Part shown: positions 1 through 6,812 of the stretch, piece after piece
Position numbering within the stretch: the stretch's first letter is position 1
Layout of the letters: each line of letters starts with the position of its first letter
Assembly (NCBI GenBank): GCA_003519645.1
Contig: DOWI01000264.1
Coordinates: forward strand, 502 to 7,313
DNA: 6,812 nucleotides
Direction: 5' to 3'
Origin: Oscillospiraceae bacterium
GTDB taxonomy: Bacteria; Bacillota_A; Clostridia; Oscillospirales; Acutalibacteraceae
Translations under genes and position numbers: made by a program
Notes under the pieces: generated by a model
Told to the model about the DNA's origin: nothing
What the model saw: the letters and a program-made list of their open reading frames with translations, nothing else
Database searches by the model: none

Positions 1-472
1 CGCTGTCGAATACAGCAACATCTCCGGGGCGGGCAATTGCCAACGCCTTTTCTCTGCTGTCTGCCGCAACATCAATCAGCAGCTTATCAAGTGAAACCGC
101 TTTCGTCTTTTCCTCTTCCTTACATTGATGCACCGCTTTACCGCCCAACACACCGGTATGGCCGTTCACCTTCACGCGCTTTCCGTAAATCACAGAAGAA
201 TCAATTCCCCCGACCGCTGAAAATCGGAGGTAGCCTTCCTCTGTCACACCTGTAATAATGAAACCAACCTCATCCATATGGGCGGCAAACAAAAGGGTGC
301 AGTCTGTGCGTTTTCTACCCTCCACCCGTGCAATCACATTACCGAGGGCATCTACCGAAATAGTCATTTCAGCCGGTGATGAAGCCAATTCCTGAAGGAT
401 ATATTTTCGAACCGCATCTTCCCGCCCCGATACACCCTCAAGCGAGCAGAGCTGCTTCAGCCTGGTTATCAC
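1..472 (-). CDS. M42 family metallo-aminopeptidase, N-terminal part (runs off left edge)
   Basis: This is a second M42-type (glutamyl aminopeptidase/endoglucanase-like) peptidase; 157 N-terminal codons are visible and the gene continues beyond base 1. Members of this family are dinuclear-metal aminopeptidases that form large cytoplasmic complexes and trim peptides. Visible family marks are the opening LKQLCSLEGVSGRED (residues 5-19), the DALGNVIA segment (41-48) and the first metal site AAHMDEVGF (63-71, ligand His65 with Asp67). The later metal ligands lie outside the window. The start is GTG at 472-470, overlapping the TGA of the upstream M42 gene as GTGA, with GGGGAG (483-488 on the complement) 10 bases ahead. 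This points to translational coupling. Sequence similarity to the upstream M42 is clear in the first 100 residues, so the pair may be an old tandem duplication (inference). Confidence 0.9.
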   Translation of the reverse strand, partial: MITRLKQLCSLEGVSGREDAVRKYILQELASSPAEMTISVDALGNVIARVEGRKRTDCTLLFAAHMDEVGFIITGVTEEGYLRFSAVGGIDSSVIYGKRVKVNGHTGVLGGKAVHQCKEEEKTKAVSLDKLLIDVAADSREKALAIARPGDVAVFDS

Positions 473-1497
473 AGTTCACCAACTCCCCTCTTTGCAAACA
501 ATGCCATAAGCTGTCCCACCCGCTGAACATCACGTATATCAATCATTTCCACCGGTGTATGCATGTAGCGAAGTGGGACCGAAAGAAGGGCTGTGCGGGT
601 GCCGCTACGCGCATCCGAGATGCTCTCGGCATCGGTACCGGTAGAACCGCCCATAACTTCATTCTGGTATTCAATATCATGTTCTTCAGCAATGCTGATT
701 AATTTACGTGTCATTGCGTCATCCAGAGTCGGTGACCATCCGACCATTGGCCCACCGCCCAGCTTTCCGCATTTGGCACAGTCTGCATCCGGTGTATGTG
801 CAAAGCTGACATCAACCGCCACTGCATAATCCGGATTCACACGATATGCCGATACGGCCGAACCCCTGCAACCAAGCTCTTCCTGAACAGCAAAAACCAC
901 CGCTATATCAAATTCCGGCTCTGCCCCTTCCTTTTTCAACAGGTCAAGACAATATAGAATAGAAGCAACCCCCGCGCGATCATCCAGCGACTTGCCGCAA
1001 ACCACAGTTTCATTTATTTGTTTGAAATTTGGTTTAAACGATATGCGGTCACCCTGCTGAATATGAAGGCGTGCTGTTTCTGCATCCATTCCTATGTCAA
1101 TTCCTAAATCCGGGATTTCGGGCAGGGTATCCTTGTCCTCCTTCTTTTTCAAGTGTGGAGGTGTGGAACAAAACACGCCGAGATAGGGCTTGTCCCCATG
1201 AAGAATGACTTCAGCCGCAGGCAGCGAACGTCTGTCAACACCACCGCAGGCAGCGGCGTGAACAAACCCCGAATCATCAATGCTTGTGACAATTAAACCG
1301 ATCTCATCAATATGGGCTTCCAGCATCAAAACCGGTGCATTTTTGCGAACGCTTTTTTTTCTGCCGATTACATTCCCCAAAGCATCAATTTCTACCTCAT
1401 CACAATATTCCCGCAGCATATCTGCAGCTAGGTGTGAGGCTTCTGTTAAACCGCCTACTCCTGCGGCATTACTCAACTTCTCAAGACATGAAACCAT
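469..1497 (-). CDS. M42 family metallo-aminopeptidase, complete
   Basis: A full-length M42 peptidase of 342 residues, within the usual 340-360 range. All family active-site elements are present: AHIDEIG (61-67; His62, Asp64), KSLDDRAG (169-176; bridging Asp), VQEELGCRGS (204-213; catalytic Glu and metal Glu), AVDVS (227-231; Asp229) and RYMHTPVEM (310-318; His313). It should therefore be an active metal-dependent aminopeptidase in the cytoplasm. I choose ATG 1497-1495 because GGAAG (1507-1511 on the complement) lies 9 bases before it. An ATG 12 codons further out (1533) has no ribosome site and adds an unconserved stretch. The gene follows murD by 55 bases with no terminator between them, and its stop overlaps the next M42 start, so the three are probably cotranscribed. 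The physiological substrate cannot be told; annotations such as 'endoglucanase M' for this family are misleading. Confidence 0.95.
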   Translation of the reverse strand: MVSCLEKLSNAAGVGGLTEASHLAADMLREYCDEVEIDALGNVIGRKKSVRKNAPVLMLEAHIDEIGLIVTSIDDSGFVHAAACGGVDRRSLPAAEVILHGDKPYLGVFCSTPPHLKKKEDKDTLPEIPDLGIDIGMDAETARLHIQQGDRISFKPNFKQINETVVCGKSLDDRAGVASILYCLDLLKKEGAEPEFDIAVVFAVQEELGCRGSAVSAYRVNPDYAVAVDVSFAHTPDADCAKCGKLGGGPMVGWSPTLDDAMTRKLISIAEEHDIEYQNEVMGGSTGTDAESISDARSGTRTALLSVPLRYMHTPVEMIDIRDVQRVGQLMALFAKRGVGEL

Positions 1498-1552
1498 TAA
1501 GTCAAACTTCCTTTCTAACCAGTAGGCAAGCATTTAATTGCAGTTTGGTATA

Positions 1553-2950
1553 TTACAGCGCCATTACAAGCCTCTTAAAATGATCGCCGCGTTCTTCAAA
1601 GTTTGCATACAAATCAAAGCTTGCGCTTGCAGGCGACATGAACACAATATCCCCGCCCTGCGCAATTTTCCGAGCGGTGAGGACAGCCTCTTCCATTGAC
1701 GACACGCGGTGAACAGGCAGTTTGGAATTCTTGCGGATCACCGCTTCTATGGCATTCGCAGTAGCCCCCAGCAGTATGGCTTCCTTTACCGTTTTCGCGG
1801 CGGCAGGCCCCAGCGGATCATAAGGGATATGCTTATCGTAGCCGCCCGCAATCAATATTACTTTACGATGAAAAGCCTCAAGCCCAGCAATGGTTCTTGA
1901 CGGGCTTGATCCGATTGAGTCATTATACCACTTAACGCCGTTAAGCTCACGAACAAGCTCACAGCGATGAGGTACGCCTCCAAAGCTTCGGGCATAATCT
2001 GCGATTATCTCGGGAGGAACTTTCCCCCATACTGCCGAAATCGCTGCCAGATAGTTTTCAATATTATGAACACCGGGCAAACGAATTTCATCCGCTGCTA
2101 TCACGGGCGTATCGACACCTTTTTGGGTGAGGGTTAAGATACCGTCGTTTGAAAGCCATGCTCCGCACTCCGGCTTGCTTTTTCGTGAAAACATCAATCG
2201 CTTTCCCTGAGTAGTGGTTGAAAAGGATGCGGTATATTCATTGTCGGCATTTAATACCGAAATGTCCGAGGAATCTTGCCAGGCAATCAGGTTTTTTTTG
2301 GCATCAATATATTCCTGCATATCGGTATGCCAGTCAAGATGGTTTGGAGCAATGTTGGTAATAACCGCTGTCTGCGGACTTTGTTTCATACCTGTAAGCT
2401 GAAAACTGGAAAGCTCGACAACCACTCTATCTTCCGATTCAATATCCTCAACAACCGGTAGCAATGGCCTACCAATATTCCCCCCCAAGTGAACACGAAA
2501 TCCTGCAGCCTCCAATAGTCCGGCGATAATGGTAGTCGTCGTTGTCTTGCCGTCCGAACCGGTAACTGCCGTAATATGGGCAGGACAAAGCGAGAAGAAC
2601 ATCTCCATTTCAGAAGTAACGGTTATCCCCCTGCGGCGGGCTTTCTCAAATTGAGGTAAATACGGCTTCATCCCCGGAGTCCGTAAAATCATATCCCAAC
2701 CCGTCTCAGTAAGCGAGTCTAGATAACCGTCACCAAGACACAATGATGCACCCGCGGCTTCCAACTCATCTGCGATATTACCCAATTGTTCGCGGGTTCG
2801 TTTATCGCAGCCTGTTACCACGGCTCCGTGTAATAAAAGCTGGTATATTATGGGTATGTTGTTCTTGCCCACACCGCATACCGCAATACGCTTTCCCTTT
2901 AATCCCCTGAAAAACTCCGACGCTTTGTTGCTTCTGCCCAATTTGCTCAT
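1553..2950 (-). CDS. murD: UDP-N-acetylmuramoyl-L-alanine--D-glutamate ligase MurD
   Basis: MurD adds D-glutamate to UDP-MurNAc-L-alanine using ATP, the second amino-acid step of cytoplasmic peptidoglycan precursor synthesis. From the chosen start it is 465 residues. Order of parts: N-terminal Rossmann-like UDP-binding domain with GKRIAVCGVGKNNIP (19-33), ATP P-loop TGSDGKTTTTT (130-140), GGNIGRPL (156-163), VELSSFQL (178-185), ITNIAPNHLDWH (197-208), the probable carbamylated lysine in YIDAKKN (Lys218), GVHNIENY (293-300), GVPHRCE (325-331), WYNDSIGSSPSRT (341-353) and the C-terminal FMSPASASFD (437-446). NDSI instead of NDSK is, to my knowledge, usual in clostridial MurD. Start choice: ATG 2992 is the outermost, but it lies at or before the transcription start predicted from the promoter at 2995-3023. 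The tandem ATGs at 2953 and 2950, after GGTAAGG, or a TTG at 2941 are better. The exact codon is uncertain. Confidence 0.97.
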   Translation of the reverse strand: MSKLGRSNKASEFFRGLKGKRIAVCGVGKNNIPIIYQLLLHGAVVTGCDKRTREQLGNIADELEAAGASLCLGDGYLDSLTETGWDMILRTPGMKPYLPQFEKARRRGITVTSEMEMFFSLCPAHITAVTGSDGKTTTTTIIAGLLEAAGFRVHLGGNIGRPLLPVVEDIESEDRVVVELSSFQLTGMKQSPQTAVITNIAPNHLDWHTDMQEYIDAKKNLIAWQDSSDISVLNADNEYTASFSTTTQGKRLMFSRKSKPECGAWLSNDGILTLTQKGVDTPVIAADEIRLPGVHNIENYLAAISAVWGKVPPEIIADYARSFGGVPHRCELVRELNGVKWYNDSIGSSPSRTIAGLEAFHRKVILIAGGYDKHIPYDPLGPAAAKTVKEAILLGATANAIEAVIRKNSKLPVHRVSSMEEAVLTARKIAQGGDIVFMSPASASFDLYANFEERGDHFKRLVMAL

Positions 2951-2994
2951 CATCCTTACCAAGTGATACAAAGGAAATCTATCCCAATGCATTG

Positions 2995-3023
2995 ATTATA
3001 TAGTATACTTATTGCAAGGTCAA
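2995..3023 (-). promoter_or_regulatory. Sigma-A type promoter of murD-M42-M42 operon
   Basis: On the minus strand TTGACC (3023-3018) is followed by a 17-base spacer and a perfect TATAAT (3000-2995). This predicts a transcription start near 2988, about 35 bases before the tandem ATGs of murD. The match to the housekeeping consensus is close (5/6 and 6/6 with ideal spacing), so strong constitutive expression is expected. The start of transcription itself is not shown by sequence. Confidence 0.8.
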
Positions 3024-3188
3024 TTATCAATTTCGGCCTGCTACTTTTTAAAAATAAATATGTAAGTTTTTTTAATAGGTGAATATCGACCAAATAAGCT
3101 TAATCAATTCCAACATTTTTTGCATGTTATTTGTTTACTATTACCAATATAAGTCTTTTCAATTAGAAAATTAGGAGAAATTTCAATA

Positions 3189-3211
3189 AACACTTGTAAA
3201 ACAAAAGTGTT
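3189..3211. repeat. Inverted repeat overlapping the -35 box (operator candidate)
   Basis: AACACTT (3189-3195) and AAGTGTT (3205-3211) form a perfect 7-base dyad with a 9-base centre. It covers the -35 hexamer (3194-3199) and part of the spacer of the plus-strand promoter, the usual place for a repressor or other dimeric regulator. The binding protein is unknown, and short dyads of this AT content can occur by chance. Confidence 0.4.
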
Positions 3212-3222
3212 AAAAGTATAAT
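3194..3222 (+). promoter_or_regulatory. Candidate sigma-A promoter of the DUF5317/agr/GGDEF gene set
   Basis: TTGTAA (3194-3199, 4/6 to the -35 consensus), a 17-base spacer and a perfect TATAAT (3217-3222) predict a transcription start near 3229, about 30 bases before ATG 3261. It is the best plus-strand promoter in the intergenic region and points into the signalling genes. AT-rich DNA gives chance matches, so this is moderately supported. Confidence 0.6.
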
Positions 3223-3260
3223 GTATTAAGTAAGAATATAATTAGGTGTGGATTGCATTT

Positions 3261-3827
3261 ATGATCTTTCAGGTACTGATGGCGGCGATTGTAGCAAAAA
3301 TAAGAAAACTTGAAGTTTTGAAAGCACTTATTAAACCTGTTTTTTATCCTTTTTATATTGTTGAGCTTGTTTATATCTTTTTTCAAATTAACGTATTTTT
3401 AGGAAATTATCAATTTGTTTCCTATGCATCTATATTAAAAACTGCCACCCTATATTCCCTTCTTATACCTATATTTGTGTACAAGCTCTACCTCCCCGCT
3501 TTGGCAGGCTCAGGCTTTATATTTGTAGGTTCCATACTCAATGAGATGGTTAAACATGCAAACGGCGGGAAAATGCCTGTTTATCCTACGCTCTCTCGTT
3601 TGACCGGATACTTCAAGGAGGGAATGCTGGACAACTCTTCCTTACATATTATAGGTACACCTGATTCGCATTATAAATTTTTAAGCGACTATATCGATGT
3701 AGGTTACAGTATTTTAAGTATTGGAGATTTATTTGTACATTCTTTTGTGTTCATCGTTTTTTATTATGGAATTAAGGCCGTTACACGGATGTTAAATGGA
3801 GGAAATCTCATTGAATCAGATTCTTGA
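3261..3827 (+). CDS. DUF5317-like integral membrane protein
   Basis: A 188-residue membrane protein that I match to DUF5317, a family of unknown function found mostly in Clostridia. Support comes from two conserved-looking stretches: NGGKMPVYP (101-109) and FLSDYIDVGYSILSIGDLF (140-158, containing the SIGD motif). About four hydrophobic segments are visible (27-44, 59-76, 80-94, 148-172), plus a short N-terminal one. Start: a GTG at 3246 directly follows an in-frame TAG, but no ribosome site precedes it. ATG 3261 has AGGTG (3244-3248) 12 bases ahead and gives the short N terminus typical of the family, so I prefer it. The next gene starts inside its 3' end, implying coupling. No catalytic motif is visible; a role in sensing or in modulating the GGDEF-HD-GYP protein downstream is only inference from location. 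Confidence 0.75.
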   Translation: MIFQVLMAAIVAKIRKLEVLKALIKPVFYPFYIVELVYIFFQINVFLGNYQFVSYASILKTATLYSLLIPIFVYKLYLPALAGSGFIFVGSILNEMVKHANGGKMPVYPTLSRLTGYFKEGMLDNSSLHIIGTPDSHYKFLSDYIDVGYSILSIGDLFVHSFVFIVFYYGIKAVTRMLNGGNLIESDS

Positions 3828-4278
3828 ACAAATCGCATTATTTTTATTTGCATATTTATATCAAAGTTTTATCTATGTATTTGGGATACATCTTTTTAGC
3901 AAACATCAGATTAAGTGGAAACCGTTTTTCATTTGTGCCGCAGCTTCAATGGCGATAACATATTTTGTTCGCATATTCTTAACTTTTGGAAACCATACAC
4001 TATTCAGCCTTATTTTCTTAATTATTCTATCAATTATTTTACTAAAAATTCCTGCTCAAAAAGCAGTAAAAAGTGCATTATTTATTGCTATCATTACTTT
4101 CATTTTTGAGGGTGCTATTTTCTTTGTATTTTCCGCTTTTATAGGAATTGATCCTTTTAAAAAGTTCTTAGAAACAAATTTGGGGAAAATATCAATAGGT
4201 CTTCTTTGTAATGTTATGTTAACAATTTTTTTATTATTGATGTATTTTTATAAAAAAAGAAATAAGAAACTCTCTTAA
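3811..4278 (+). CDS. Small five-helix membrane protein, resembling a kinase-less AgrC-type sensor domain
   Basis: A 155-residue, almost wholly hydrophobic protein with five predicted membrane helices (about 8-29, 37-58, 62-80, 88-112, 127-147) and a basic tail (KKRNKKLS). I do not recognise it as a named family. Helix spacing and the segment AVKSALFIAIITFIFEG (85-101) resemble the N-terminal membrane sensor of clostridial AgrC-like GHKL kinases, but no dimerisation helix or ATPase domain follows: it ends 14 bases before agrB. Start: TTG 3811 has a strong GGAGG (3798-3802) 8 bases ahead. The ATG at 3796 is part of that ribosome site context and has none of its own. The gene overlaps the 3' end of the DUF5317-like gene by 17 bases. 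Peptide receptor, export helper or AgrB partner are all possible; none is shown. Confidence 0.8.
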   Translation: MNQILEQIALFLFAYLYQSFIYVFGIHLFSKHQIKWKPFFICAAASMAITYFVRIFLTFGNHTLFSLIFLIILSIILLKIPAQKAVKSALFIAIITFIFEGAIFFVFSAFIGIDPFKKFLETNLGKISIGLLCNVMLTIFLLLMYFYKKRNKKLS

Positions 4279-4292
4279 GTTCAGGTGAATAA

Positions 4293-4898
4293 ATGGAAAC
4301 GTTCGTCAATAAACTAGCATCAATTATTACATCACCTTTACAATATGATGAAGAGAAACGTGCTGTTGTCCAATATGGATTGTTTGCTATTATCCAAATT
4401 GTTATAGTTGCTATTATTATTTCATCATTTGGTGCTTTAACTGGATGTTTTTTAGAATGCTGGATTGTTTATCTAACAGTCGCCATTTTAAGGAAATCAA
4501 CAGGAGGAGCACATGCACGCACTAGCAATGGGTGTCTGTTAGTAAGCGTCATTGTTATCGCCATTTTGGGACTTCTCTCACGCTACCTTTATTTAATGCC
4601 CTATGGTTTTGAAATTTGTTTATTCTTATGTCCTTTTACTTTTTTTACAGGCTGTCTTATTATTTATAAATTTGCTCCTGTTGATTCAAAAAACAAGCCA
4701 TTAAAATCTGAAAAAAAGATTAAAAATCTAAGAAAGCAAAGTTTTATCACCTTACTTTTCTATGCAATAATTACATGTCTGATTGTTTTATATTCACTAC
4801 ATAACAGACACTACATCGGTTTTGCTGTAGGTATTACACTTTCGGTACTATGGCAGTCAATTACATTATTGATAGCCGTCGCAAATAAAAATTGGTAA
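4293..4898 (+). CDS. agrB: Accessory gene regulator protein B (AgrB), autoinducer peptide processing protease
   Basis: AgrB is a membrane cysteine endopeptidase that cuts the C-terminal tail from AgrD and forms the thiolactone ring, aiding release of the autoinducer peptide. This protein has 201 residues, close to the family size. The catalytic pair is visible: His74 in RKSTGGAHA (68-75 region) and Cys81 in SNGCLL, separated by seven residues as in staphylococcal AgrB. Hydrophobic segments surround it (about 30-48, 50-66, 81-100, 103-125, 150-167, 174-196), with a basic loop KNKPLKSEKKIKNLRKQ in between. AGGTGA at 4283-4288 precedes the ATG. It lies between the five-helix protein (14-base gap) and agrD (42-base gap), so enzyme and substrate are adjacent. 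The active site is intact, so the gene should be functional. Confidence 0.96.
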   Translation: METFVNKLASIITSPLQYDEEKRAVVQYGLFAIIQIVIVAIIISSFGALTGCFLECWIVYLTVAILRKSTGGAHARTSNGCLLVSVIVIAILGLLSRYLYLMPYGFEICLFLCPFTFFTGCLIIYKFAPVDSKNKPLKSEKKIKNLRKQSFITLLFYAIITCLIVLYSLHNRHYIGFAVGITLSVLWQSITLLIAVANKNW

Positions 4899-4920
4899 CA
4901 CTTTTTTTATTTCTTATAAA
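4892..4920 (+). promoter_or_regulatory. Possible internal promoter for agrD
   Basis: TTGGTA (4892-4897), overlapping the last codons of agrB, a 17-base spacer and TATAAA (4915-4920) would start transcription near 4927, just before the agrD ribosome site. An extra promoter would allow more peptide precursor than processing enzyme. The hexamers match 4/6 and 5/6 in a T-rich stretch, so chance is a real alternative. Confidence 0.35.
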
Positions 4921-4940
4921 TTAATGAAAGGAGAACAAAC

Positions 4941-5075
4941 ATGAAAAAGTATTTTAAACCCCTGATGGCTGTTGCCGCAATGGTTTGCTCCTTTGTTGCA
5001 ACAACAATGGCATCCTCCGCGTGCATGATTTTCTACTATCAGCCCGAAGAGCCCAAATCACTGCAGGATCGCTAA
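4941..5075 (+). CDS. agrD: AgrD, cyclic thiolactone autoinducer peptide precursor
   Basis: A 44-residue propeptide with the three AgrD parts. The N-terminal basic and amphipathic leader (MKKYFKPLMAVAAMVCSFVA) anchors it at the membrane. The signal core is SSACMIFY (25-32). The acidic recognition tail is YQPEEPKSLQDR (33-44), which carries the QPEEPKSL motif of clostridial AgrD. Cys28 is the ring cysteine. By alignment from memory with the C. perfringens peptide (ring CLWFT before HQPEEPKSL), AgrB should cut after Tyr32, giving a five-residue ring Cys28-Met-Ile-Phe-Tyr32. The N-terminal cut and the length of the exocyclic tail cannot be read from sequence. AAAGGAG (4927-4933) lies 7 bases before the ATG. 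It follows agrB by 42 bases and precedes the hairpin at 5092-5134. Its base composition is more GC-rich than agrB. Confidence 0.95.
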   Translation: MKKYFKPLMAVAAMVCSFVATTMASSACMIFYYQPEEPKSLQDR

Positions 5076-5091
5076 GTCTTGGATTCTATTG

Positions 5092-5134
5092 GAATATGGG
5101 CGGACATCCAAATAGGATAAGTCCGCCCATATTC
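5092..5134 (+). repeat. Strong hairpin between agrD and the GGDEF-HD-GYP gene
   Basis: GAATATGGGCGGAC (5092-5105) and GTCCGCCCATATTC (5121-5134) are perfectly complementary over 14 bases. Inside, ATCC (5106-5109) can pair with GGAT (5115-5118), leaving an AA bulge and a five-base loop, so the stem is nearly continuous. No T tract follows (the next bases are TATATAATCACC), so it is not a classical intrinsic terminator. It may stabilise the upstream agrBD mRNA 3' end, slow polymerase or mark a processing point that sets agrD above the downstream gene. The structure is seen directly; the role is inference. Confidence 0.8.
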
Positions 5135-5195
5135 TATATAATCACCATTCTGTACACGCTAATCGCACTATGATCTGAAAGATGGTTAATTGGTC

Positions 5196-6812
5196 ATGAA
5201 TAAATCATTTGATAAATACAAAAAAGAACAGATTGGCTCAATGTTTTTTATATTGAGGATTTTAACGCTTTTCTTTTGTGCTTCACCGATTTTTCAAGGT
5301 ATTTTTAAAGGATTAACTTCTGATGAGGCTTTAGGTTTAAACTTTTTTGCAGTCGCCGTTGCCTTAGTTGTCCTCTCTATCGTTATGCTTATATGGTTTT
5401 CGATTGACAAAAAAAAGAAAAACAATAAATTACTTAGTATCCTCGAAATGGCGATTTTTTTTAGTCTATGTGCATTTTCCGTAATCATGAGCGGAATGCA
5501 TCAAAGCAGCTATAAATTTTTATTTATATTCTTGATTGTCGCCTATACAATTGAATATAATATGAAAATCGGACTAGTCATTGCTGGTTGTTCCTCAGTA
5601 TTTGTACTGGCGATTGATTTATTACATAAATCAAATCAGTCTGTCAATATATACTTTGAAAACGACCTCGCTCTGTCCTCCATGTTTATTGTTGTTGCCT
5701 GGACGCTTGGGTATTATGTCCAGTTAGAGAGAAATCATATTGATACACTTCTCACCTTTGTAAACAGAGACGGGCTTACAAATTTATATAACCATCGGTA
5801 TTTTCATGAATACCTCAAAGACTATTTTAAAAAACAGGATATCGATAAAAAACCTGTATCTTTGATTATGATGGATTTGGATGGATTTAAAGCCTACAAT
5901 GATATATTCGGTCATCAGCAGGGAGATCAAGTTCTGCGGACTGTCGCACGTCTGATAAAACAGAATATTAAAAAAGGACAGATTGCCTGCAGATATGGCG
6001 GCGAAGAGTTCGGTCTGATCTTAACCGATGTTACAAAAGAACAAGCTGCTGAATTCGCATCACATTTAAAAGAAATTGTTGATTCATATGTATTTGAAGG
6101 TCAGGATCATCTGCCAAGACATAACCTAACGATCTCTGCCGGTGTCTCGCAGTCCATGGGGAAAGATGACACCCCGGTGGCACTGATAGACCGTACAGAT
6201 GCAGCTCTCTATCGGGCAAAATTTTTACGCAGCAATCGTGTTGAAATGTTCGCCTCCATTTTCGACGAATTTTCTCATAACCATGGCGAAGATGGGCAAC
6301 TTCTCAACGCTTTGCAGCCTATCAAAACTCTTATTACGGTTATTAATTCACGTGACAGGTATACTTACAGCCATGTTGAACGCGTTGTCCTTTTTTGTGA
6401 AAAGGTAGCAGACTATATGAAAATGGATTATGAAACCAAGAAAAAGCTGATATGTGCTGCTTACCTGCATGATTTGGGGAAAATCAATGTGCCGAAAGAA
6501 TTACTGATTACCGACGAAAAACTCACTGTCGAGCAGTGGGAAGAGCTCAAGAAGCATCCCAAGGACAGTGCCGAAATCATTGCGCATATACCTGAACTTA
6601 AGAATCTTGTCCCCATTGTCCTAAGTCACCATGAGCGCTATGACGGCAATGGCTACCCGAACGGGATGAAAGGCGAAGAGATACCTTACCTGGCACGCTT
6701 GCTTACCCTTGCCGACAGCTTCGATGCCATGACGCACCGTCGCCCTTATAAGCCTACTAAAACGGTTGAGCAGGCATACCAAGAAATCCGCCCCCATTTT
6801 AATTCGCTGGCT
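5196..6812 (+). CDS. Membrane GGDEF and HD-GYP protein: diguanylate cyclase / c-di-GMP phosphodiesterase (runs off right edge)
   Basis: The visible 539 residues hold three parts. Residues 1-180 have about six membrane helices (16-37, 46-69, 79-99, 106-120, 124-144, 160-178), presumably a sensor. The GGDEF domain (about 190-350) has RDGLTNLYNHR, the metal aspartate in MDLDGFKAYND (Asp227) and an active-type signature RYGGEEF (266-272). The RxxD inhibitory site is replaced by KKGQ (259-262). The HD-GYP domain (about 375 onward) has His393, HDLGK (425-429), His454, HH (478-479), GYP (486-488) and LADSFD (505-510), so the phosphodiesterase site appears complete. Both making and breaking c-di-GMP are therefore possible. 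The last part of the HD-GYP domain and the stop are outside the window. ATG 5196 follows an in-frame stop (5187) and has only a weak GATGG upstream. It lies 120 bases after agrD, with the hairpin between. Confidence 0.95.
   Translation, partial: MNKSFDKYKKEQIGSMFFILRILTLFFCASPIFQGIFKGLTSDEALGLNFFAVAVALVVLSIVMLIWFSIDKKKKNNKLLSILEMAIFFSLCAFSVIMSGMHQSSYKFLFIFLIVAYTIEYNMKIGLVIAGCSSVFVLAIDLLHKSNQSVNIYFENDLALSSMFIVVAWTLGYYVQLERNHIDTLLTFVNRDGLTNLYNHRYFHEYLKDYFKKQDIDKKPVSLIMMDLDGFKAYNDIFGHQQGDQVLRTVARLIKQNIKKGQIACRYGGEEFGLILTDVTKEQAAEFASHLKEIVDSYVFEGQDHLPRHNLTISAGVSQSMGKDDTPVALIDRTDAALYRAKFLRSNRVEMFASIFDEFSHNHGEDGQLLNALQPIKTLITVINSRDRYTYSHVERVVLFCEKVADYMKMDYETKKKLICAAYLHDLGKINVPKELLITDEKLTVEQWEELKKHPKDSAEIIAHIPELKNLVPIVLSHHERYDGNGYPNGMKGEEIPYLARLLTLADSFDAMTHRRPYKPTKTVEQAYQEIRPHFNSLA

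Follow-up and report, generated by a model that had tools for sequence, protein, structure and literature searches.

A Conserved Clostridial Gene Cassette That Probably Links Agr Peptide Signaling to a c-di-GMP Turnover Enzyme through a Kinase-Less AgrC-Type Receptor Domain

We describe here a run of five genes in a 6,812-nucleotide stretch of DNA from an Oscillospiraceae bacterium (the window, whose positions are used throughout), in which the Agr signaling genes agrB and agrD stand beside an enzyme of cyclic di-GMP (c-di-GMP) turnover. In order, and as open reading frames that all lie on the plus strand of window positions 3246–6812, these genes encode a DUF5317 membrane protein, a five-helix membrane protein that we call FIVE, AgrB, AgrD, and a protein in which a six-helix membrane input domain, which we call SENSOR, precedes a GGDEF diguanylate cyclase domain and an HD-GYP phosphodiesterase domain. 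A coupling of agrBD to the c-di-GMP enzyme is strongly supported by the comparison of related loci, and the identity of the peptide-binding protein is less certain than this coupling. We consider it probable that the cyclic peptide made by AgrB from AgrD is sensed by FIVE together with SENSOR, and that it sets the balance between the GGDEF and HD-GYP activities. To our knowledge, this would be the first peptide quorum-sensing circuit with a second messenger as its immediate output, and no published description of the cassette was found in the literature searched, outside of which lay preprints and most subscription journals.

Results and Discussion

Gene Content of the Locus

The preliminary description of this DNA, made from the sequence alone, reported an intact agrB and agrD flanked on the same strand by membrane proteins and a GGDEF–HD-GYP protein, and this account stands, with all five frames open and the profile matches in agreement. 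AgrB, the peptide-processing membrane protease (4293–4898, 201 amino acids (aa)), matches PF04647 with an E value of 2.1e-41, and its His74 and Cys81 are invariant in an alignment of 25 sequences. The AgrD precursor (4941–5075, 44 aa) passes the cut-off of TIGR04223 (E = 3.6e-9), and, across 35 cassettes compared as described below, AgrD follows a pattern of Cys plus four residues, one more residue, and then QP, in which the four ring positions vary and are hydrophobic, mostly aromatic. The predicted product of the window AgrD is a thiolactone ring of Cys-Met-Ile-Phe-Tyr (CMIFY, Cys plus four residues) followed by YQPEEP, with a ring size that we assume from the likeness to staphylococcal AgrD. 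DUF5317 (3246–3827, 193 aa, with a GTG start and an alternative ATG at 3261) and FIVE (3796–4278, 160 aa) precede agrB, and SENSOR (5190–5759, starting from TTG at 5190 or ATG at 5196), GGDEF (5763–6236), and HD-GYP (6327–6812, continuing past the window end) follow agrD. Of the Agr components, AgrB and AgrD are thus present in the locus, and an AgrC histidine kinase and an AgrA LytTR regulator were not found in it.

Window positions 1–6796 are 99.9% identical to a contig of the genome assembly (C105), and the last 16 bases (6797–6812) fall outside this match, so the end of the enzyme in the window is not its true end; on the genome contig, the SENSOR-GGDEF-HD-GYP protein is complete at 560 aa. 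It is followed there by an antiporter-like gene and a 111-aa gene, the other strand carries a transporter-like gene (all named by eye), and no agrC/agrA pair was found downstream of the enzyme on this contig. A pair just beyond position 6812, which the preliminary description had allowed for and had named as an outcome that would count against its proposal, is ruled out for the genome contig by the genes read there. The assembly is 73% complete in 210 contigs, and statements of absence from the genome are limited accordingly. It holds one AgrB match, no recognizable AgrC-like kinase (two HATPase_c_5 matches were judged by eye not to be AgrC-like), and no recognizable AgrA-like regulator, the only two LytTR matches being proteins of ~150 aa each and therefore too short for a receiver domain.

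Conservation of the Cassette

A search with the window AgrB gave 30 proteins at E ≤ 0.001, and a profile built from 25 sequences (the window and 24 of the 30) retrieved 77 distinct loci from genome contigs; because these loci were chosen by likeness to the window AgrB, counts among them show conservation and not frequency or prevalence. All five genes occur in the same order and on the same strand in 37 of the 77 loci, so we reject a chance neighborhood, and one further locus (L102) holds all five in a different order. Eleven loci hold part of the gene set, nine of them cut by a contig end and the other two (L095 and L098) being long loci without a detected DUF5317, and 28 do not hold the set. 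Among the 37 ordered cassettes, the SENSOR gene is cut by the contig end in L074, L078, and L086 (in the last of these, the contig ends before any output domain is detected); in L066, the reading frame of this gene is split. The comparison of neighborhoods in relatives had likewise been proposed as one that could speak against the coupling, and it instead found the five-gene link to be kept.

Isolates that carry the cassette include Proteiniclasticum ruminis, P. aestuarii, [Clostridium] fimetarium, Anaerobium acetethylicum, Clostridium nigeriense, C. sartagoforme, C. tertium, C. gallinarum, Neobittarella, and Bittarella, and the same five genes are found in a genome from another family of the window's order (G100, locus L044). 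A separate and less biased Pfam search, run on 197 genomes from the order, gave 31 AgrB matches, of which 29 were examined, two below the cut-off being left out; these 29 agrB loci comprise two cassettes, 17 loci in which an AgrC-type kinase lies within 3.5 kb, and 10 loci with neither.

Pairwise comparisons were made with 35 of 41 non-duplicate five-gene loci, after dropping those with a truncated or split SENSOR, a split FIVE or AgrB, or masked letters, together with L102. When every gene is given its longest frame, 24 of these 35 cassettes show an overlap of FIVE with agrB and 13 an overlap of DUF5317 with FIVE, and all DUF5317–FIVE and FIVE–agrB gaps are shorter than 120 nucleotides (nt); the intergenic gaps are operon-like.

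Variant arrangements were also observed. L095 has a 926-aa GGDEF–HD-GYP gene (4349–7129) upstream of its cassette, and L111 (940–3896) has a tandem pair of SENSOR-GGDEF genes after agrBD, the second of which leaves the contig. In L108 (1–2924), a GGDEF–HD-GYP gene whose start is cut by the contig precedes DUF5317–FIVE–agrB, after which the contig ends, so that the enzyme gene stands before DUF5317 and not after agrD.

FIVE as an AgrC-Type Receptor Domain

FIVE belongs to no Pfam family, the match to SpoIIGA (E = 0.04) being below the Pfam cut-off, and its AlphaFold model consists of five long helices with a predicted local distance difference test score (pLDDT) of 94. An iterated FIVE profile also matches the N-terminal halves of kinase-sized proteins (~340–480 aa) at other agrB loci of Clostridia. 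As a control for profile drift, we restricted a further profile to the FIVE proteins of 43 cassettes, for which the next matches beyond FIVE-like short proteins are agrB-linked kinases, with E values of 3.7e-9, 2.5e-8, 5.1e-8, and weaker. In the reverse direction, a profile of the first 175 residues of 17 kinase-sized proteins matches cassette FIVE proteins with E values down to 7e-13 (2.4e-5 for the window copy); at E < 0.01, its matches are exclusively FIVE or kinase-sized proteins at agr loci, beyond which a 51-aa frame follows at 0.02, with SENSOR, at 0.77, as the first of the other cassette families. Comparison with hhalign gives E = 2.5e-13 for FIVE against the kinase sensor halves and E = 2.9e-6 (probability 88%) against 11 kinases missed by the FIVE profile, a second set that was reached via the kinase profile and is thus not fully independent, and values of 0.003 or worse for FIVE against the AgrB, DUF5317, and SENSOR profiles.

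GHKL-type ATPase domains are present in all five of the full-length kinases that we scanned, and the same five match the staphylococcal AgrC model NF046015, mostly over most of their length (L116 weakly, E = 1.1e-5) and all well below its naming cut-off. FIVE also occupies the place of several AgrC-type kinases, immediately before agrB. Taken together, these profile comparisons identify FIVE as a homologue of the receptor half of AgrC, such that AgrC would be present here without its kinase. The absence of AgrC and AgrA reported in the preliminary description is therefore upheld in part: the locus has no kinase and no LytTR regulator, but the receptor domain of AgrC has a homologue in FIVE.

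The distribution of FIVE follows the output. Our set of 122 agrB rows comprises 62 SENSOR-linked loci, 39 with an AgrC-type kinase near, and 21 remaining. Of the SENSOR-linked loci, 58 have a stand-alone FIVE, none has a FIVE–kinase fusion, and four gave no FIVE match, while in the AgrC-type loci a FIVE-type sequence is kinase-fused in 16 cases and alone in one (L118). The remaining rows comprise two with a GGDEF–HD-GYP neighbor and no SENSOR call (L108 and L136) and 19 that are unclassified, four of the latter having a stand-alone FIVE where the contig ends. The pattern is one of FIVE freed from the kinase where SENSOR supplies the output. L118 (6597–9535) is an informative intermediate, a split AgrC, in which separate genes for FIVE and a 283-aa kinase precede agrB and a gene for a LytR-like response regulator follows it.

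Among the four membrane parts, FIVE has the lowest sequence identity in 525 of 595 cassette pairs, with a median of 0.25, as opposed to 0.33 for SENSOR, 0.34 for AgrB, and 0.41 for DUF5317 (the corresponding values for the GGDEF and HD-GYP domains are 0.47 and 0.51, respectively). Low conservation would be as expected of a specificity-determining receptor, although it may have other causes.

SENSOR as an Input Domain with Exchangeable Outputs

The AlphaFold model of SENSOR has six helices (pLDDT 87), the last of which continues towards GGDEF, such that both helix counts given in the preliminary description (five for FIVE and six for the N-terminus of the GGDEF protein) are borne out by the models. 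A SENSOR profile has 24 matches in 21 of 391 genomes of the class, the window included, and SENSOR occurs in six of 394 genomes of the order. With neighbors read within 1.5 kb to either side (or less where a contig stops), AgrD lies beside 18 of the 24 class matches and AgrB beside 16. The output is GGDEF and/or HD-GYP in 17 of these matches (called by motif, three being checked with Pfam) and a histidine kinase in six, and in one (L162) SENSOR stands alone with a separate kinase gene adjoining. A kinase output of the PAS-HisKA-HATPase type is found in six agr-linked SENSOR loci, L102 counted, and the 62 SENSOR-linked agrB loci divide into 55 of c-di-GMP type, six of kinase type, and one that is cut off. 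As SENSOR is kept beside agrBD with either GGDEF–HD-GYP or a PAS-histidine kinase, it appears to be an input hub that can be swapped between outputs.

The preliminary description had suggested that the peptide signal could enter through the six-helix sensor or through the five-helix neighbor. Sequence comparison favors both routes: SENSOR stays with agrBD while the output changes, and FIVE is of the AgrC receptor type.

In three genomes of one genus (L169–L171), a SENSOR-GGDEF-HD-GYP gene without agr lies just after a large uvrC-like gene, a setting in which SENSOR may recognize another ligand. In L136, from a metagenome-assembled genome of Thermanaeromonas, FIVE–agrB–agrD is followed by a GGDEF–HD-GYP protein whose N-terminus matches SENSOR marginally (5.7 bits), and this locus may be a deep relative.

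The c-di-GMP Enzyme and DUF5317

The window enzyme matches PF00990 (GGDEF) with E = 1.7e-41 and HD_5 with E = 6.4e-38, and carries the signatures RYGGEEF, HDLGK, and HHERYDGNGYP. RYGG(D/E)EF is found in 34 of the 35 cassettes, and the HD, HHE, and GYP signatures are kept in all 35, with the Asp position of the GYP motif occupied by Asp in 27, Asn in six, and Gly in two. Judged by these motifs, both activities look intact, and the sign of the c-di-GMP response is thus not predictable.

The genome holds 12 GGDEF matches and six c-di-GMP-I riboswitches, so c-di-GMP is probably a working messenger in this organism, and probably one that acts partly through riboswitches; the genes after some of these riboswitches are, by eye, pilin-like or encode a large secreted protein-like product. 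A c-di-GMP riboswitch was found near the cassette in one of 28 loci searched. In L088 (1–1002, minus strand), at a distance of 3.4 kb from a cassette, a c-di-GMP-I riboswitch precedes a gene for a secreted surface-like protein, and in the genome of the window's own organism (C52, ~23031–23196) tandem c-di-GMP-I riboswitches are followed by a protein that by eye resembles that of L088. The riboswitch-preceded secreted surface-like protein may be an output of the circuit.

The window DUF5317 protein matches PF17248 with E = 4.2e-20 (72.7 bits against a cut-off of 25), and the family occurs in 41 of 196 genomes of the class. Its neighbors were read for the best 30 of 47 matches, with the lower-scoring matches, that of the window included, lying outside the count; an HD-GYP gene stands directly beside 23 of the 30, and AgrB beside none. 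A genuine Agr component is therefore an unlikely identity for DUF5317, and the cassette looks like the union of two parts, an Agr part (FIVE, agrB, and agrD) and a c-di-GMP part (DUF5317 and SENSOR-GGDEF-HD-GYP). In L199–L201, DUF5317 lies within open frames of ~540–580 aa after an HD-GYP gene, and an extra domain is present.

An RNA Hairpin after agrD

Between agrD and the enzyme gene, the window has an RNA hairpin on the plus strand (5092–5134), with perfect 14-bp arms (5092–5105 and 5121–5134) and an inner 4-bp stem. The region folds with a z score of -4.4, none of 200 shuffles being as stable; no U-run follows, and we do not call it a terminator. No known RNA family was found in the window at gathering score, and lax thresholds gave two matches far below their gathering scores. 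A perfect stem of at least 10 bp within 90 nt of the agrD stop occurs in 53 of 64 SENSOR-linked loci, with a shuffle P value ≤ 0.01 in 50 of the 64, and in nine of 231 control windows of the same length inside agrB of SENSOR-linked loci; the copy of the window stem in its own genome has a bulge, counts as 8 bp in the strict test, and is outside the 53. By eye only, stem sequences differ among lineages while the pairing persists. The hairpin may set the expression ratio of the signal genes to the output enzyme.

On the other side of the cassette, window positions 1–2992 carry, on the minus strand, two genes that by eye are M42-aminopeptidase-like and a MurD-like ligase gene, all of which look unrelated to the cassette.

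Evolutionary History

An unrooted AgrB tree was built by a quick method from 118 of the 122 rows, after removal of four with fewer than 175 aa. The classes AgrC-kinase, SENSOR-c-di-GMP, and SENSOR-kinase need two changes on this tree, which is the minimum possible; with six labels, including unclassified, the count is 19 changes, as compared with 54.1 in shuffles, and in this counting SENSOR-c-di-GMP alone takes eight changes and AgrC-kinase 10. The SENSOR-kinase rows nest in a group with SENSOR-c-di-GMP rows, with a support of 96 in the Shimodaira–Hasegawa-like approximate likelihood ratio test (SH-aLRT). From this unrooted tree, we infer an order in which AgrC-kinase loci came first, FIVE with SENSOR-c-di-GMP second, and a kinase on the same SENSOR last. 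Whether an AgrC receptor domain lost its kinase and became a peptide-binding subunit docked on the six-helix hub of an enzyme of c-di-GMP turnover, with the hub later replugged onto a histidine kinase in one lineage, is in our judgment an evenly balanced matter.

Proposed Mechanism and Alternatives

In the mechanism that we favor, AgrB would cut and cyclize AgrD, and the Cys-Met-Ile-Phe-Tyr ring would be exported and then sensed at the membrane by the kinase-less FIVE together with the SENSOR domain of the enzyme. Binding of the peptide would alter a helix bundle formed by FIVE and SENSOR, and this change would reach the GGDEF and HD-GYP domains by way of the last SENSOR helix, so as to shift the making versus the breaking of c-di-GMP. 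DUF5317 would act as a helper membrane protein of the HD-GYP module, and the hairpin would make the expression of the signal genes and of the output enzyme unequal.

Several observations weigh against this mechanism. With respect to FIVE, its likeness to the more distant AgrC-type kinases is modest (11% identity at an hhalign probability of 88%), the best unrelated hhalign pair, the kinase halves against SENSOR, reaches 0.0013, three of the five scanned kinases score higher with other kinase models (on the kinase half), and no FIVE match was found in 22 of the 39 AgrC-type loci. The models of FIVE and SENSOR have no confident Foldseek match in the PDB, and mirror-tree partial correlations are weak and single out no clear pair, AgrD–FIVE being the closest at 0.23 and AgrD–SENSOR standing at -0.07. 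Six of the 24 SENSOR matches (L169–L171, L173, L174, and L175) have neither AgrB nor AgrD within the 1.5 kb or less that was read to either side, with a FIVE fragment nearby in L174. As for the enzyme, L109 lacks the RYGG(D/E)EF signature and two cassettes (L079 and L084) lack the Asp or Asn of the GYP motif, and the high-scoring DUF5317 proteins, within the best 30 of 47 matches, are mostly partners of HD-GYP with no agr near. A hairpin after agrD occurs also in 12 of 35 AgrC-type loci. Finally, in L072 (2–2819) a FIVE fragment, agrB, and agrD are followed by an unrelated 570-aa gene, with no SENSOR found in the 2.6 kb after agrD, which makes this a broken or different arrangement, and in L103, of which L108 is the nearest relative in the tree, agrB has no detected agrD or SENSOR after it.

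Among the alternatives, a one-component switch in which SENSOR alone is the peptide receptor survives best, although we consider it unlikely; FIVE would then be a leftover of AgrC that aids processing or export by AgrB or tunes sensitivity. Decidedly improbable, in our view, is a co-expression of modules that make no contact, in which an unlinked AgrC-type kinase reads the peptide and the GGDEF–HD-GYP protein senses something else. In its favor, the assembly is only 73% complete, SENSOR does occur without agr, and agrB1D1 of Clostridioides difficile is described, in the portion of PMC10602386 drawn on here, as being without an apparent cognate agrC/agrA and with an elusive AgrD1 receptor; against it, neither a kinase resembling AgrC nor a regulator resembling AgrA was recognized in the part of the genome that was assembled, the same gene link is met with repeatedly in Clostridia, and SENSOR keeps its place with agrBD despite the exchange of outputs.

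A reversed flow, in which SENSOR receives some other input and the resulting c-di-GMP state governs the activity of AgrB or the release of the peptide, would be in keeping with the operon-like closeness of the genes, but the window AgrB has no added regulatory domain and PAS-kinase proteins without a GGDEF or HD-GYP match keep the agrB–agrD–FIVE–SENSOR set, and we regard this reading as very improbable. A last reading, in which AgrD gives rise to an antibacterial cyclic peptide, FIVE or DUF5317 confers immunity to it, and the c-di-GMP enzyme is a mere regulator, is hardly credible despite the strongly hydrophobic, mostly aromatic rings, as FIVE groups with kinase receptor domains and DUF5317 lies mostly beside HD-GYP without agr (best 30 of 47 matches). 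Sensing of the peptide by FIVE together with SENSOR is the reading that we retain.

Relation to Known Systems

Peptide quorum sensing in Gram-positive bacteria is known to rely either on kinases with their response regulators or on import of the peptide. Like the agrBDCA systems of staphylococci and Clostridia, the cassette has an AgrB and an AgrD with the expected features, and FIVE stands before agrB where several Clostridia carry a whole AgrC-type kinase; unlike them, it has a receptor without a kinase, no adjoining LytTR regulator, and an output that is GGDEF–HD-GYP or, in a minority, SENSOR-PAS-kinase. In RpfC–RpfG, as here, a quorum signal acts on an HD-GYP enzyme, but it is relayed by a histidine kinase to an HD-GYP protein of the response-regulator type, and the signal is a fatty acid. 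The NspS–MbaA polyamine receptor, as far as the partial sources used here describe it, likewise pairs a separate sensing protein with a membrane enzyme of c-di-GMP turnover that responds to an extracellular signal, whereas its sensor is a periplasmic binding protein, its ligand a polyamine, and its phosphodiesterase domain one other than HD-GYP. That domain is EAL.

The agr1-type partial loci of C. difficile resemble the present locus, in the parts of PMC10602386, PMC3754575, and PMC8428550 consulted, in having agrBD without a kinase/regulator pair, and differ in that here a receptor-like domain adjoins agrB and a candidate output enzyme lies in the same run. In strain R20291, the link of agr to GGDEF/EAL genes is, according to the portion of PMC3754575 drawn on, transcriptional and comes from an agrA mutant. 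Six-transmembrane-helix (6TM) adenylyl cyclases and the engineered CqsS–Rv1625c fusion, which is reported in PMC4821796 to be stimulated by the quorum signal CAI-1, resemble the window enzyme, going by its predicted helix count, in having a six-helix membrane module before a nucleotide cyclase; the fusion, in contrast, is engineered, makes cyclic AMP (cAMP), and uses another kind of autoinducer, while our locus is a natural one in which the signal would be a peptide and the messenger c-di-GMP.

Conclusions

Because the outputs are exchanged while the input hub stays constant, simple chimeras could test the proposed coupling. For agrBD loci without agrC, the cassette offers a new form of answer to the question of how the peptide is read, namely to seek a kinase-less receptor domain. 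If the proposed mechanism is true, cell density would be tied directly, within a single run of genes, to c-di-GMP, the messenger on which the choice of moving or settling depends.

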